From the IMG/VR virus record IMGVR_UViG_3300010403_000013, positions 1 through 42,345 of that record: a stretch of DNA of 42,345 bases. The stretch is one strand, 5' to 3'. Made by a program: the position numbers and the translations under genes. The notes beneath the pieces are model-generated. The model was not told the origin of the DNA. It did not search any database and saw nothing but the letters and a program-made list of their open reading frames with translations. This DNA comes from a virus. Every line of letters starts with the position of its first letter. The first letter of the stretch is position 1. This document shows positions 4,781 through 13,180 of the stretch, piece after piece.

Positions 4781-4955
4781 AAGTTTATTTTCGCTTTTAA
4801 AAATCCCATTGCCAAGTCGGATACTTCTCATGTCGATGGATCATGGCAAAGACAAGTATGAAAAAATCGATACAGGAAAACACCTTAAGGATAGGGATCA
4901 AAAGAAATACGAGAAAGACCTAATGCCTCAAATCCTTATGCGTATTGATCTATAG
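4773..4955 (+). CDS. Small basic/acidic charged protein, 60 aa
   Basis: The ATG at 4773 has GAAGGA eight bases upstream. The product begins with a short hydrophobic stretch (SLFSLLKIPLPSRILLM) and ends in a highly charged tail rich in Lys, Asp and Glu. It is the last gene of the recE/recT operon. Its TAG stop lies inside the palindrome CTATAG (4950-4955), which also supplies the stop of the convergent haem/barrel gene. The function is unknown. Confidence 0.6.
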   Translation: MSRSLFSLLKIPLPSRILLMSMDHGKDKYEKIDTGKHLKDRDQKKYEKDLMPQILMRIDL

Positions 4956-6065
4956 CCAAAGATGGCTCATCAAAAGATAGCTGATGGCTTCTTCTTCTTT
5001 CCTCGCCTCAATGCGAAATTCGCTATGGGGGATGAGCATAAGCTGAAGAGATAGGGCATGCCTTGAAATATTTTTTGACTCTAAGAGCCTTGAGCCAAAA
5101 TCATAATTGACGACAATTCCATGATAGATCTCGCTTCCGCTCCTTAGAAAGAGGAGTCTTTCATCGGGTTGGTCCAAAGTCTCAACATGATCAAACTCAG
5201 CCAGAAAATAAAGCCGATCCTTAATTGGAGCGCTTCCCAAAAAGGCCGCCAGCATTTTTTTATCATGATCATAATAACAACTTCCTCCCACGTAGTGGCG
5301 GGCACTAAGTTTCACCGTTGCGCGAAAGAGCGTGGCTTTCTCATCGGCGGAATTGACGTTTAGCTTCTCCCGGGAATCTTCTATCACAACGCTATGGCCA
5401 AAGGTTCTCGTCAAGGTGAGAGAGCCTATTTCCCCTTCAAGGTGAGCCTCAAGGTTTACGCTTTCCCTCCCCTGAGATATCCCGCTCGCGGATCTAACGA
5501 AGGCCGTGTGATCGTCCAAGTTAAGGCCAAAGGCTGGAAGAAAACGACCAGCCCTTAGCTGTAAGTGTTCACTTGTCCTCGTCTGGAGGTAATGCGTTCT
5601 GGATTCTTTGCTTTCCCCTGGTCCATATTTACCATATCCGAAAACTAAGTCAAACTGATCTCCAACGTGGAATGCGCCTTCAACAGCAGTCTGCATAGGG
5701 ATTTTAAGATAAAGGCTAGGCTGATTCTTAGTATCAATTCTCATATTAACTTGACGCCATTCTGGCTGGATGTTGAATTTCACATTGGAAAAAAGCATGG
5801 TCGGATCCTTAATGCTTTCAAGAGAGGGTATACCAAAAAACTCTCCAGCACCCTCATAACGAAAGGTCGAAAGTTCCGATGATACGCCACGACCATAAGA
5901 GGTGAGCACGCCGCCGCCGGCGGGGGATACATGGCAGGCAAGACAAGAAGTATATCCCTTCCTTATTAAATCGGGAAAGGCAAAGCCGGCGGTCGAGGTG
6001 AACCCGGAAAGGATAATGATTAGGAAGGGAATATTTTTAAATTTCGAGCGAAACCTTAATATCAA
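4950..6065 (-). CDS. Exported haem-motif protein with outer-membrane-barrel-like body
   Basis: The 371-residue product has a signal peptide (basic RFRSKFK, hydrophobic core IPFLIIILSGFTSTAGFA) and then a single c-type haem motif CLACH at residues 41-45, followed by a Gly-rich stretch. About 300 residues of alternating polar and hydrophobic strands follow and end in HLWL. This is the look of an outer-membrane beta-barrel, with GRFLPAFG-type turns seen in porin-like proteins. The start is TTG at 6065, overlapping the YceI gene by 29 bases; no ATG lies upstream of the signal. It is not a normal phage gene. A redox or envelope-modifying cargo role is inferred. Confidence 0.8.
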   Translation of the reverse strand: MILRFRSKFKNIPFLIIILSGFTSTAGFAFPDLIRKGYTSCLACHVSPAGGGVLTSYGRGVSSELSTFRYEGAGEFFGIPSLESIKDPTMLFSNVKFNIQPEWRQVNMRIDTKNQPSLYLKIPMQTAVEGAFHVGDQFDLVFGYGKYGPGESKESRTHYLQTRTSEHLQLRAGRFLPAFGLNLDDHTAFVRSASGISQGRESVNLEAHLEGEIGSLTLTRTFGHSVVIEDSREKLNVNSADEKATLFRATVKLSARHYVGGSCYYDHDKKMLAAFLGSAPIKDRLYFLAEFDHVETLDQPDERLLFLRSGSEIYHGIVVNYDFGSRLLESKNISRHALSLQLMLIPHSEFRIEARKEEEAISYLLMSHLWL

Positions 6066-6537
6066 CTATTTTCCCGACCGTTAAAAGTTTATAGGTAGGG
6101 ACCTTGATCCCATAGGCAGTGACGTCGACTTGAAACTTGGCGACCGCAATCTTATCGCCTTTAAACTCCACTTCACCTTTGACTTCTTTCACAACGCCGT
6201 GAAGAGTGAAATATCCTGTGAATTCTTTTTTTGAATCTTTCGCAATCTCTATAGGATCAAGACGAAAGCTTGCTTCTGGAAATTTTTTCTCTTCTAGGTA
6301 TCCTAGCATATGACCATCGCGCTCTTCTATACCAGTCTTTAATTGACCGATCGGAATCGTGAAAGTGCCAGCGATTTTATTATTCATAATAGTGGCCTTA
6401 GTTGCATCGACCTTTCCACCCTTACCCTCAATCTCTAAAAAGCCAGGCGTTGCCTTTGCAATGAAATCGGACGTTGCCTTGATCGCAGACACGTTCACAT
6501 AAGCTAGAGACAGAATGAAAAATAGTTCCTTTTTCAA
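6037..6537 (-). CDS. YceI-family periplasmic protein
   Basis: The 166-residue product has a signal peptide (MKKELFFILSLAYVNVSA) and a YceI-like lipocalin fold. Recognisable parts are the first strand with DFIAKATPGFLEIEGKGG, the segment KTGIEERDGHMLGYLEEKKF then PEASFRL, and the closing FQVDVTAYGIKVPTYKLL with KIVDIKVSLEI. Family members bind isoprenoid-type lipids, and some occur with b- or c-type cytochromes. Its start overlaps the zinc-ribbon stop (ATGA-type overlap) and its end overlaps the haem/barrel gene, so the three form a tight operon. Length fits a complete YceI protein. Confidence 0.9.
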   Translation of the reverse strand: MKKELFFILSLAYVNVSAIKATSDFIAKATPGFLEIEGKGGKVDATKATIMNNKIAGTFTIPIGQLKTGIEERDGHMLGYLEEKKFPEASFRLDPIEIAKDSKKEFTGYFTLHGVVKEVKGEVEFKGDKIAVAKFQVDVTAYGIKVPTYKLLTVGKIVDIKVSLEI

Positions 6538-6737
6538 AGGCCTCCCTCCTTTTGTGTTCTAATTTTTGGTTCCCAATGAATGAAAATATAAAAAGACAAA
6601 TAGCATAACTTACACGTTTTCTTTTTTCCAATTATATCGCCTAACATCATAATTGGAAATAAATTATCTTGATGGCAGTAAGGGCAAGGGATAGCTAGGT
6701 TATTTGGTTTTCCATATTTTCGATTCGAATCACTCAC
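6534..6737 (-). CDS. Small zinc-ribbon protein, 67 aa
   Basis: The start is GTG at 6737, six bases after a strong GGGAGGAG ribosome site; the ATG three bases upstream runs straight into a stop. A CPYCHQDN knuckle near residue 18 and a CKLCYLSF knuckle near residue 42 form a four-cysteine ribbon. A Lys-rich C-terminus ends where the YceI gene begins. It may be a small regulator or a chaperone-like factor of the operon; only the metal-binding ribbon is visible. Confidence 0.75.
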   Translation of the reverse strand: MSDSNRKYGKPNNLAIPCPYCHQDNLFPIMMLGDIIGKKKTCKLCYLSFYIFIHWEPKIRTQKEGGL

Positions 6738-6750
6738 ATAAATCTCCTCC

Positions 6751-6763
6751 CTGCGAGACGCAG
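6751..6763. promoter_or_regulatory. Small hairpin upstream of the zinc-ribbon/YceI operon
   Basis: CTGCG-AGA-CGCAG is a perfect 5-base-pair hairpin directly upstream of the GGGAGGAG ribosome site of the minus-strand operon, so on the mRNA it sits in the leader. On the plus strand it is followed by TTTT. It may limit ribosome access, but it is short enough to be accidental. Confidence 0.3.
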
Positions 6764-6856
6764 TTTTATAAGAAGATCAATAATAGATTCTATGATTATG
6801 CCAAAGAATATTAATGCCTTTACCAAGAGTAGATCTACCACTATCTGACTTCCATT

Positions 6857-9025: not shown

Positions 9026-9376
9026 TCAAAAAAAAGTGAGCATCTCAGTTCTCACATTATCTGGCAGAGCCTTAGGAGCATTCGAAGGCGGCATCTTCTT
9101 AGACCATAGATAATTCTTGGCCTGTGAGGCCCTCAATGCATTCTCTCCCTGCATGAATTGAGCAGTGGCATGACAACTCTGGCAATAATTTGCGAGATAG
9201 GTCTGCATCTTTTGGTAGCTTATCTTAGTTCCAGTATCAGGGTCATCGCCAGGATCTGTACCTGGATCAGTTCCCGGTCCAGGCGAGGGATTATCGGAAG
9301 TCTTTTCAACCACTCTTTCTCCACAGGAGAAGCACGCCAAAACTAAAAAAGTAATACCAAGTTTTTTCAGTTTCAT
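9026..9376 (-). CDS. Small c-type haem lipoprotein, 116 aa
   Basis: From ATG 9376 the product has a lipoprotein signal with VLAC at 12-15 and a second cysteine at 18. An acidic Pro/Gly/Asp repeat linker (GPGTDPGTDPGDDPDTG) follows. The rest is a small cytochrome-like domain with CQSCH at 65-69 and a later MPPS (95-98) whose Met can be the distal haem ligand. It should sit in the periplasm tethered to a membrane. It lies 19 bases after the larger haem lipoprotein. Its stop directly follows a T8 run, so a longer form by slippage cannot be excluded. Cytochrome cargo is very unusual in a phage. Confidence 0.8.
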   Translation of the reverse strand: MKLKKLGITFLVLACFSCGERVVEKTSDNPSPGPGTDPGTDPGDDPDTGTKISYQKMQTYLANYCQSCHATAQFMQGENALRASQAKNYLWSKKMPPSNAPKALPDNVRTEMLTFF

Positions 9377-9395
9377 AGTCCTAGGCCCTTCCTGG

Positions 9396-10877
9396 TTAAG
9401 GCAAATTGGCATCCTCATAGGCAGCCGTCTCGTCCACTAAAGTCTGAAAGTTTGCTGAAAGTGTAGCAAGGTTGATGGTTCCCCCTGAGAGAAGATTTCC
9501 GAACACCTGAGAACTCACCGCCGCTCCTTGGAGTCTTTCCCTAAACGTCGCAGCATCGAACCAGAGGAGCGATGCGACCTGTTCTAGGCGCATCTCGGTT
9601 CTAAGCGGCAAAGCCACAACGTTCCAAACGGGATCTTTTTCAGCCGTTATCCCAAGGTCTGCCATTGCTCGCGCATGGTTTCGATTGAGTTCTTCGATTT
9701 GAGCCGTGATCTTATCGAAGCGAAAGAAGATATCGGCCAACCTTTTTTCGTCTCGGTTATAAGCGGTATTATTTAAGATGTGAGCCCGAAGCTGATCGCG
9801 AAAAGCGATTGCGACGCCTTGGTTAAAGTGGCAATTACCGCAATCACCGATCCTAATAGTTGCGTCAAGTTGTGCTGCAGCTCCTGCTAGGTTGATAACG
9901 ACGTTATTTGGCGCCGCCACCTCGGCAGTATCGTTTGCATTATTTAGTCTATAAAGTGACCATAGGCCATTATTCTGCGTGCAAATATGCTCTTGAGCAT
10001 TATGGCGGAAGATCTTGTTAGTAATTTTATTTCCATTAAGCTGACCGGCTTGAGCAAGTTCAACAGTGAAGCTGTTTTTAAAGATATCGTCGCCGCCGAG
10101 GACCGTGTCATAAGTAGAGATACATGTGCCATTTCTGCTTTCAAATACCGCAATCATCCGCGTTTTACCTAAGGCAATCTGGCTCTGGCTGAAGCCACTG
10201 AACATCGCCTCTTCATCATTTACCAGCGCCTGCCTATCGACTCCCTGCTGCGCAAAAAAGTTAGCGGTAAGCCTATCTTGCTTAACAAGCGAATAATAAA
10301 CGGCACCCTTCTTATCTGCTACCGCATCACCTTCGAAGGCTGTTATCAAAGACGATGCCGCGTAAACATAGGGACGCTTTGCCTGCGTTAGAAACTGAAT
10401 ATTGCGATTTCTGATCGTCTTACTTTCAAACTTTAAGATATCGGCACTCGATAAAATCTCCCAATCTTTCGAAGTCCAACCGATCGCCGAAAGGTCGATC
10501 CGATAGATACAGTTTCCAGGACCAATCGATGGAGCCTTATAAAGTTCCCGCTCGGAACTCAGCTGATTGAACCCTCGATTTACTCCCTGCTCAAATTCGG
10601 CCATCTGATCGCCAAGGTTATATCTCTCGCAACCGACAACGTAGCGCGTATTCTGGCGTTCGGTGTCAGAGTTCAGATTTTGAAGATCGAGGAGAATGCT
10701 ATCTTCTATCGTATCTATCGTTTGAAATCCAGGTCGCGGAGGATCGCGTGGCTCAGGGATTGGCTCCGATGGTTTTTCAATTATGACGTTGTTATTCACT
10801 TTTTTAGTTTTTGTTTTTTGACAATTAAATGAAAAAACAAATGCAAATAAAGTAAGAAAAGAGAAAAATTTAACCAT
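9396..10877 (-). CDS. Large exported lipoprotein with c-type haem motif, 493 aa
   Basis: The ATG at 10877 follows GGAGG by nine bases. The signal peptide ends in FSFNC (Cys 19), a lipobox with an unusual Asn at -1, followed by a Lys-rich then Pro-rich linker. The body has several cysteines and one haem motif, CGNCH at 346-350, preceded by IRIGD. The C-terminal 140 residues are helical (LADIFFRFDKITAQIEELNR). It resembles the haem-binding lipoproteins of predatory and other delta-type bacteria rather than any phage protein. It is cotranscribed with the small haem lipoprotein, which suggests that the two act together. Confidence 0.75.
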   Translation of the reverse strand: MVKFFSFLTLFAFVFSFNCQKTKTKKVNNNVIIEKPSEPIPEPRDPPRPGFQTIDTIEDSILLDLQNLNSDTERQNTRYVVGCERYNLGDQMAEFEQGVNRGFNQLSSERELYKAPSIGPGNCIYRIDLSAIGWTSKDWEILSSADILKFESKTIRNRNIQFLTQAKRPYVYAASSLITAFEGDAVADKKGAVYYSLVKQDRLTANFFAQQGVDRQALVNDEEAMFSGFSQSQIALGKTRMIAVFESRNGTCISTYDTVLGGDDIFKNSFTVELAQAGQLNGNKITNKIFRHNAQEHICTQNNGLWSLYRLNNANDTAEVAAPNNVVINLAGAAAQLDATIRIGDCGNCHFNQGVAIAFRDQLRAHILNNTAYNRDEKRLADIFFRFDKITAQIEELNRNHARAMADLGITAEKDPVWNVVALPLRTEMRLEQVASLLWFDAATFRERLQGAAVSSQVFGNLLSGGTINLATLSANFQTLVDETAAYEDANLP

Positions 10878-11056: not shown

Positions 11057-13180
11057 ATGGCTTTATTACACCCGCCTGAAACTGGACCGGAAGGTCCCAT
11101 GGGTCCAGAGGGTCCGATAGGTCCCGAAGGTCCGAAGGGAGATCAGGGTATCGATGGTGCCGTTGGACCGGAGGGACCTCAAGGACCAACAGGATCGCAA
11201 GGCATTCCAGGTCCTCAAGGTATTCAAGGGCCTCCAGGATCGATAGGGCCTCAGGGACCAGCAGGAGCTCAGGGAAATCCAGGGCCTGGCCTTCCAGTCG
11301 GGGGAACTACTGGTCAGACAATAAGAAAATCAAATAATACTGACTTTGCAACCATCTGGGCAGATGCTTCCAATATTACAAAAGAACCAACCGGATTTGT
11401 TACGAGAACAACATCAACAATTTCCTTCGTGGACGCAACGAGGACATTTACAATTACGCCAGTTGGCGGAATGTTTTCTGTTCATCAGGCTGGGCTAAGA
11501 TATGAAAAATCTGTCGCTGAAAGCATTGTTATCCCTGACGTTGAGGGATCGCATTGGATCTATTATAACCAGGGAGTTTTGAATTCTAGCCAGGTTTTTA
11601 ATAGGGCACTGTTCGAATTTGCAATGGTTGCTCTCCTTCATTGGGATGCAACGAACAAAATAGCTATACTATTTGGAGACAAACGCCATGGCGTCGTCAT
11701 GGATAAGGACACGCAATATAGTATCCTCATAACGGAAGGGGCTAAATTTGTAACAGGGTTTGCTCCTACCGGATATAATGCATCAGGCGATGGCAGTAGC
11801 GATGCGCATGCACAGCTTTCAATTGACGATGGAATTTTGCTTAATCAAGATATTGACTATATTATTTCGCACGCAAATCCTGTCACGCAGCCTTATCAGC
11901 AAATACTAGACCCATTTTCACTTATTCCAGTTCTTTATCGAATTGGAACAAATGGTCCTTGGAGAAAGGACACGGCAACAGGGTTTCCAGTAAAACAAGG
12001 CGCGTCGAGAATCCAATATAATGCCCTAGCAGGTAACGTCTGGTCTACTGCAGACGTAAGCAATGGCACATACCTTAACATGTGGATTATCGCGACCTTC
12101 AATCAGCGCGAACCAATAATGGCAATCTTGGGTCAGACAAACCATAGCACCTTGGCAACAGCACAATCAGAGCAACCTGTTGCCGTTAATTTAACTGGCC
12201 TTCCGCTCCAAAACGGAAAGCTCATTTGTAAAATTATCTATCAGGCATCAAATTCATACGCTAACGTTCCGCATGCGCGCATACGCGAAGTGCAGGATTA
12301 TCGCTCATCAGCCCTGATTGGTAGCACCATCCAAGGACCAGCTGGCGTCGGAATTCCAGCTGGAGGCCTTACAGGTCAGGTTCTTAAGAAAAACTCTAAT
12401 GCAGACTTTGATACAGCCTGGGGGACCGATACGCTATTGGGAGTTGATCGCTTCATTGCATCATCGGAGCAATTCGATGATGTGATTATGGGGGGCAATT
12501 CCATTGGCCTTTTGGGGGAGAATTTTTCTAAGAGCAATGGAAACGCGATAAGACGCTATGGACCTTCTAATGGTGCCTTCGGCTACCTTGAGCTATCCCT
12601 AGGGCTAGAGGATCAAGCTTATGCTGGAACCTCGCAATCTCCTTTAGATGCACCTTGGATGAATACTTATGCGGTTGGTGGCGAGTCGAGGTTTTATTCC
12701 CTTCCAGGATCAAAACTAACCCATGAGGTTAGATTCAAATTCCACGAAGGCCGTGTATCGGCGCAAGGAACCCTCGGAGCTTTCATCGGATGGACGGAAT
12801 GGAATACGGTCTTTACTGAAGATCAAAGAGCTAAGATGAGCTGTGGCCTCGTCACTGGCTCAACTACGCCTGATCAAACAAAGTTTTATATTCTTCATAA
12901 AAAGCTAGGCGATTGCATAAGACGCTATAATAGTACTGGCATTTCGCTCGATGGCAGTTGGCATCGCTATAAGCAGGTTTTAACCTTCGGTGTCATAAGC
13001 GCAAGGATCGAGCATTACTTAGATGGAATTTTGGTGGAGATAACAGAGGATGTACAGTTTCCTACGAAAGACATCGGCTGTGTTTTCGGCATGCACGTAA
13101 GAAATGTAATGAAGGCAAATACGAGAGTGGAAGGCCTTTGGATTGACTGGCACTATCTTTCCGTGGAGAGACCCATATGA
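11057..13180 (+). CDS. Collagen-like tail fibre protein, 707 aa
   Basis: Residues 10-78 are 23 uninterrupted Gly-X-Y triplets ([20 protein letters not shown] and on), which should form a collagen-like trimer stalk. Two copies of the fibre motif GGxTGQxxxKxSNxDFxTxW follow: [20 protein letters not shown] at about 82-101, and [20 protein letters not shown] near 435. The last 250 residues look like a lectin-type beta-sandwich ([20 protein letters not shown] and [13 protein letters not shown]). GGAG precedes the ATG by six bases. It is on the plus strand, opposite to the late operon. The role is host binding. Confidence 0.85.

Follow-up and report, generated by a model that had tools for sequence, protein, structure and literature searches.

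The cytochrome-porin gene and its neighbours in the window

The window, i.e. the whole stretch of 42,345 nucleotides analysed here (IMG/VR record IMGVR_UViG_3300010403_000013), carries at positions 4950–6065 of the minus strand a gene for a protein of 371 residues (TTG start, stop codon included in the coordinates). The first residues (approximately 1–28) form a signal peptide, recognised by eye, and are followed by a haem head (residues ~29–65) that contains AFPDLIRKGYTSCLACHVSPAGGGVLTSYGRG. Within this head the haem attachment motif CLACH occupies residues 41–45 (codons at 5931–5945, minus strand), where 0.0009 CXXCH motifs would be expected in a random protein of this composition. A linker runs from the head to residue 94, and the rest of the protein (residues 95–370, about 280 residues) is predicted to be a 16-strand barrel.

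In a preliminary description of this DNA the barrel had been guessed by eye from the alternation of strands. AlphaFold2 run with 63 homologues (alignment A1) gives 16 beta strands over residues 95–370, with a mean pLDDT of 84.8 and a pTM of 0.81; run on the single sequence it was uninformative (pLDDT 31.8). Foldseek returned 217 matches in the PDB at E ≤ 0.001, the best 50 of which are outer-membrane porins with OmpU, OmpM1 and OmpT at the top; the list also includes the 16-strand porins OprP and OprO, at ranks 14 and 20. Because the TM-scores of the porin matches are about 0.5–0.6, the fold class is well supported and its details are not. The outcome that could have spoken against the first guess, a fold other than a barrel, did not occur, and the idea of a single polypeptide with a haem motif ahead of a barrel is thus borne out by the motif at residues 41–45, the 16 predicted strands and the porin matches.

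The protein has no match among Pfam, PHROGs, NCBIfam or PDB sequences, nor among viral or genome contigs scanned with it as a single protein, nor among named phages and plasmids searched by tblastn. The detection of its relatives required motif patterns and an alignment query. In an alignment of 69 family members C41, C44 and H45 are kept in all 69, a count that is partly circular since 61 of them were retrieved by a motif search, the profile search described below being fairer. H186 and M124 are each kept in 68 of the 69. In the model strands 5 and 6 are separated by a long stretch that contains H186, and either H186 or M124 may be the sixth ligand of the haem. The family core, GY..C..CH.SP.GGG.L..YGR, is near-invariant, and the window protein has both this core and the homology of the barrel.

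Directly upstream, a YceI-family gene (6037–6537, minus strand; 166 residues, TTG start, ribosome-binding site AAAGGAGGG in front) overlaps by its end the start of the cytochrome-porin gene over 29 bases. Its assignment is strong, with an E-value of 8.9e-19 against Pfam PF04264 and a score of 68.8 bits for a curated cut-off of 23.7. A promoter-like site, TTTCCA-17-TATAAT, is found upstream of YceI at 6631–6659 of the minus strand (10 of 12 positions, a consensus match only). A CPYCH at 6686 is located upstream of YceI in a frame spanning about 6570–6780 of the minus strand. This frame (CPYCH...CKLC) resembles a small zinc ribbon and not a haem protein; an open frame of 80 residues outside the ORF list, it was left out of the counts.

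Two further genes of the minus strand encode lipoprotein-like proteins with one CXXCH each: one of 130 residues at 9026–9418 (CQSCH, with MPP downstream) and one of 493 residues at 9396–10877 (CGNCH). Among the window frames of at least 60 residues none has more than one CXXCH. Both proteins have a relative in the phage contig G004, with an E-value of 2e-7 for the smaller one, and of 2e-46 for the larger one at 28% identity, the CXXCH being aligned. These relatives lie at L076:5105-7100 (IMGVR_UViG_3300049828_000410). The larger gene has no relative among 99 genomes of the Bdellovibrio class searched with a two-row profile; weak relatives occur in two other genomes only, each protein having two CXXCH. 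A collagen-repeat, tail-fibre-like gene follows on the plus strand at 11057–13180. The overlapping YceI gene, the two further CXXCH genes and the three other phage contigs described below were absent from the preliminary description.

Carriage by phages and occurrence on chromosomes

The window belongs to a phage: matches to PHROGs cover terminase, portal, major head protein, sheath and baseplate, with E-values down to 4e-106. The cargo sits between recombination genes (RecT and an exonuclease, 1099–2958) and the tail and structural genes (from 11057 onward), and phage replication genes occupy the far end. Three more carriers emerged when 2.9 million viral contigs were scanned with patterns and alignments. 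G001 is a myophage fragment in which sheath/tail and head genes flank the YceI/cytochrome-porin pair on both sides; G003, 14 kb long, opens with the pair and also has terminase, portal and head genes; G004 is a 39-kb contig with matches to a primase, Erf and an endolysin, and with terminase-like and head-like ORFs recognised by eye. In G001 a lipoprotein-like gene with HELGHCELDRDH is present directly upstream of YceI (L073:3371-4018, minus strand). The phage YceI proteins used as sole query return exactly these three contigs. That a phage carries the fused cytochrome-porin, as first suspected, is therefore confirmed by the phage genes that surround the pair in the window and by the three other contigs.

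The sets of structural genes differ among the four carriers, and the phage cytochrome-porins are about 30% identical among themselves and to the chromosomal copies. In a maximum-likelihood tree the four phage proteins group with two bacterial rows only, L021 and L053 (SH-aLRT 96); the branches of the phage clade being long, a single origin is possible, not established. We considered these two rows as prophages and discarded the idea, no phage genes being recognised nearby by eye.

With a DNA pattern of the haem core, 69 loci were detected in bacterial genomes. Most are labelled as Bdellovibrionota groups, and a few as Acidobacteria, Deltaproteobacteria or Proteobacteria. The motif being part of the query, this search says nothing on its conservation. 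The profile search returned matches in 82 of the 99 genomes of the Bdellovibrio class, in some of them weak or partial only, in agreement with the early expectation of chromosomal homologues in Bdellovibrionota. CXXCH is present in the full-length proteins retrieved from the main and second groups, with the one clear exception of L114; in L113 the copy is split across two frames. Loss of the motif among homologues, which could have undermined the first description, is thus limited to this exception. More distant relatives of about 390–550 residues mostly have one or two CXXCH. For instance, in L123, L127, L128 and L131 (Bdellovibrio class, ~460–550 residues) one or two CXXCH, e.g. CAACH and CQGCHVNPQGGG, precede the region that matches the barrel profile.

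At most chromosomal loci the YceI gene ends no more than about 55 bases from the start of the porin gene. Upstream sequence exceeds 1.2 kb at 58 chromosomal loci (the window and L001 excluded); among them a YceI gene is present upstream in 45 (counted within 2.5 kb on the same strand), a small CXXCH...MP gene in 43, and both in 35. The order in Bdellovibrionota chromosomes is typically small CXXCH lipoprotein, YceI, cytochrome-porin. In Oligoflexus and Pseudobacteriovorax loci the small CXXCH gene replaces YceI directly before the porin. The 130-residue protein of the window is of the same general type as these small genes, although the link is weak: it is the second-best match of the chromosomal-domain HMM, at an E-value of 0.042, and its gene is about 2.5 kb from YceI.

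Other neighbours concern respiration and copper. In a MAG labelled Pseudobacteriovorax the cytochrome-porin and the small CXXCH lipoprotein gene come directly after a cbb3 oxidase cluster and a copper-type P-type ATPase, as judged by eye (L142:6959-15495, G134). Copper genes are found near the YceI/cytochrome-porin pair at seven loci (L022, L033, L043, L044, L052, L055 and L067), namely multicopper oxidase, P-type ATPase with YHS or heavy-metal domains, and CsoR-type repressor.

Since the cytochrome-porin family is concentrated in Bdellovibrionota, the window phage probably infects a member of this group; its structural genes are no firm guide to the host. The terminase is about 34% identical to genes in a few genomes of two Bdellovibrionota classes, which is too weak, and the matches of the major head protein come from phages with many different hosts.

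Likeness to Cyc2, proposed working and alternatives

A fused monohaem cytochrome-porin is already known in iron-oxidising bacteria, Cyc2, which is predicted to be a 16-strand porin like OprO and OprP (PMC8406198). With this precedent, and with the family widespread on chromosomes, the suggestion that the fused form is a new kind has to be abandoned; the architecture, the phage carriage and the homologues of the preliminary description stand. The window protein shares with Cyc2 a single N-terminal CXXCH after the signal peptide and a 16-strand porin body, OprP and OprO having been recovered by Foldseek. Cyc2 is further defined by AXPXFAR[Q/K][T/Y] upstream of CXXCH and by PXL four residues after it (PMC8406198). 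At the first of these places the window protein has AFPDLIRKG, which matches A, P, R and K and not F, A or T/Y; at the second, CHVSPAGGGVLTSYGR has extra residues between P and L.

We retrieved six Cyc2-type proteins from plasmids with a Cyc2-like motif consensus. Their haem head reads A-P-FARQTG-C..CH..FPELTPYGR, and several of their porin genes adjoin a c-type cytochrome gene. The later L-T-x-Y-G-R part is common to them and to the window protein. In hhalign, alignment A1 and alignment A6 (four of the plasmid proteins, identified by motif and gene context) match over 41 columns of the haem head (probability 91.6%, E-value 8e-7), while the barrels do not align. Since the upstream Cyc2 motif is matched only in part and PXL is absent, we do not file the window protein as Cyc2. 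Judged on its sequence it is Cyc2-like by architecture, and in the haem head it is probably a distant relative.

We consider it fairly probable that the gene is a phage copy of a family found on Bdellovibrionota chromosomes, in which a monohaem c-type cytochrome is fused to a 16-strand outer-membrane porin, and that it belongs to an envelope redox module working in the manner of Cyc2. YceI proteins are carriers of prenyl-type molecules, and the partner would be such a carrier in the periplasm, working with the pair. We infer that the cytochrome-porin is exported and that the host machinery attaches haem to CLACH. The barrel would then insert in the outer membrane and may supply the sixth ligand by H186 or M124, and the haem head would plug its periplasmic mouth, as proposed for Cyc2 (PMC8406198). 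The haem would connect the cell surface with a small cytochrome lipoprotein of the periplasm and relay electrons from one to the other, again as proposed for Cyc2; an inward movement is favoured by the likeness to Cyc2 and by the cbb3 neighbour. In the infected cell the phage cargo would alter the redox chemistry of the envelope, and the phage might benefit from an electron flow that is maintained, or from metal that is handled, during infection. Some observations count against a redox module: the match to Cyc2 covers the haem head only, the AXPXFAR[Q/K][T/Y] motif is partial, the small CXXCH gene of the window is distant from YceI and weakly linked to the chromosomal type, L114 is devoid of CXXCH, and the copper genes beside seven chromosomal loci also fit metal handling. 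A single haem may moreover not suffice to bridge the membrane, which counts against an electron conduit.

Metal handling is the first alternative, and an unlikely one: the module would work at the outer membrane on a redox metal, for example Fe(II) or Cu(I), and its oxidation or import would serve uptake or protection and not respiration. The copper genes at the seven loci agree with it, as does the fact that Cyc2 oxidises Fe(II) (PMC8406198), but most of 65 loci are without such a neighbour in the sequence examined, a cbb3 oxidase, which itself requires copper, is encoded next to one locus, and the mechanism overlaps with that of a redox module.

Slightly less credible still is a phage-encoded porin that mainly modifies the cell surface, for instance by replacing a receptor and excluding other phages or by altering permeability, the haem motif being inherited baggage. 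Viral Porin O/P and OmpC-like proteins, matched by structure, indicate that other phages have porin-like barrels, and the gene is present in several different phages. Nevertheless CXXCH, the SP.GGG part and H186 have been preserved in every one of the four phage copies, whose overall identity is about 30%. The YceI gene is also kept by the four contigs, and further CXXCH proteins by two of them (the window and G004), partners that a pure surface role leaves unexplained. It is very improbable that the cargo is host DNA brought in by chimeric assembly or lying at the edge of a prophage: the four carriers are metagenomic contigs and the cargo genes have bacterial relatives, but phage genes flank the cargo in the window and in G001 and the divergent phage proteins group together, with two bacterial rows only, so that four independent chimeras are unlikely.

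A larger proposal, which we put forward tentatively and with some doubt, is that diverse phages, probably of Bdellovibrionota, carry a portable redox module for the envelope, made up of the cytochrome-porin and YceI and joined in two or more of them by other CXXCH lipoproteins. It would carry electrons through the outer membrane of the infected host and be the first virus-encoded trans-outer-membrane electron conduit. Viral genes for photosynthesis and sulphur metabolism are well known. The present genes suggest that some viruses also carry parts for electron transfer across the outer membrane of their host, and if the Cyc2-like working is true, phages can alter the exchange of electrons between bacteria and their surroundings. 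The carriage of the YceI/cytochrome-porin pair by phages, seen in four contigs, appears unreported in the literature searched, outside of which most subscription journals lie; this literature held no paper on a virus-encoded cytochrome-porin or on viral extracellular electron transfer with cytochrome and porin. The phage genes also bring to light a chromosomal YceI/cytochrome-porin operon that is very common in Bdellovibrionota and apparently without a name there, no paper in the same literature joining Bdellovibrio, YceI and cytochrome.

Comparison with known systems

The chromosomal operons of Bdellovibrionota are like the window in having the same fusion, YceI directly upstream and a near-invariant haem core. 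In the window, by contrast, the small CXXCH gene is separated from the pair, and the proteins are only about 30% identical. Phage-encoded porins likewise provide a porin-type barrel encoded by a phage, whereas a haem head and CXXCH and YceI partners are added here; those porins were compared by their barrel only.

In the MtrAB/Pcc porin-cytochrome complexes the porin and a multihaem cytochrome are separate proteins (PMC4245776). They resemble the window protein by the combination of a barrel and a c-type haem at the outer membrane, the haem being here a prediction, and differ from it since the window protein has one CXXCH fused to the barrel. Cyc2 is like the window protein in signal peptide, length, haem head and the proximity of a c-type cytochrome gene. 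It differs by its PXL, in place of which the window protein has the GGG insertion. The YceI partner, the distribution in Bdellovibrionota and the carriage by phages further separate the two systems, as does the oxidation of iron known for Cyc2.
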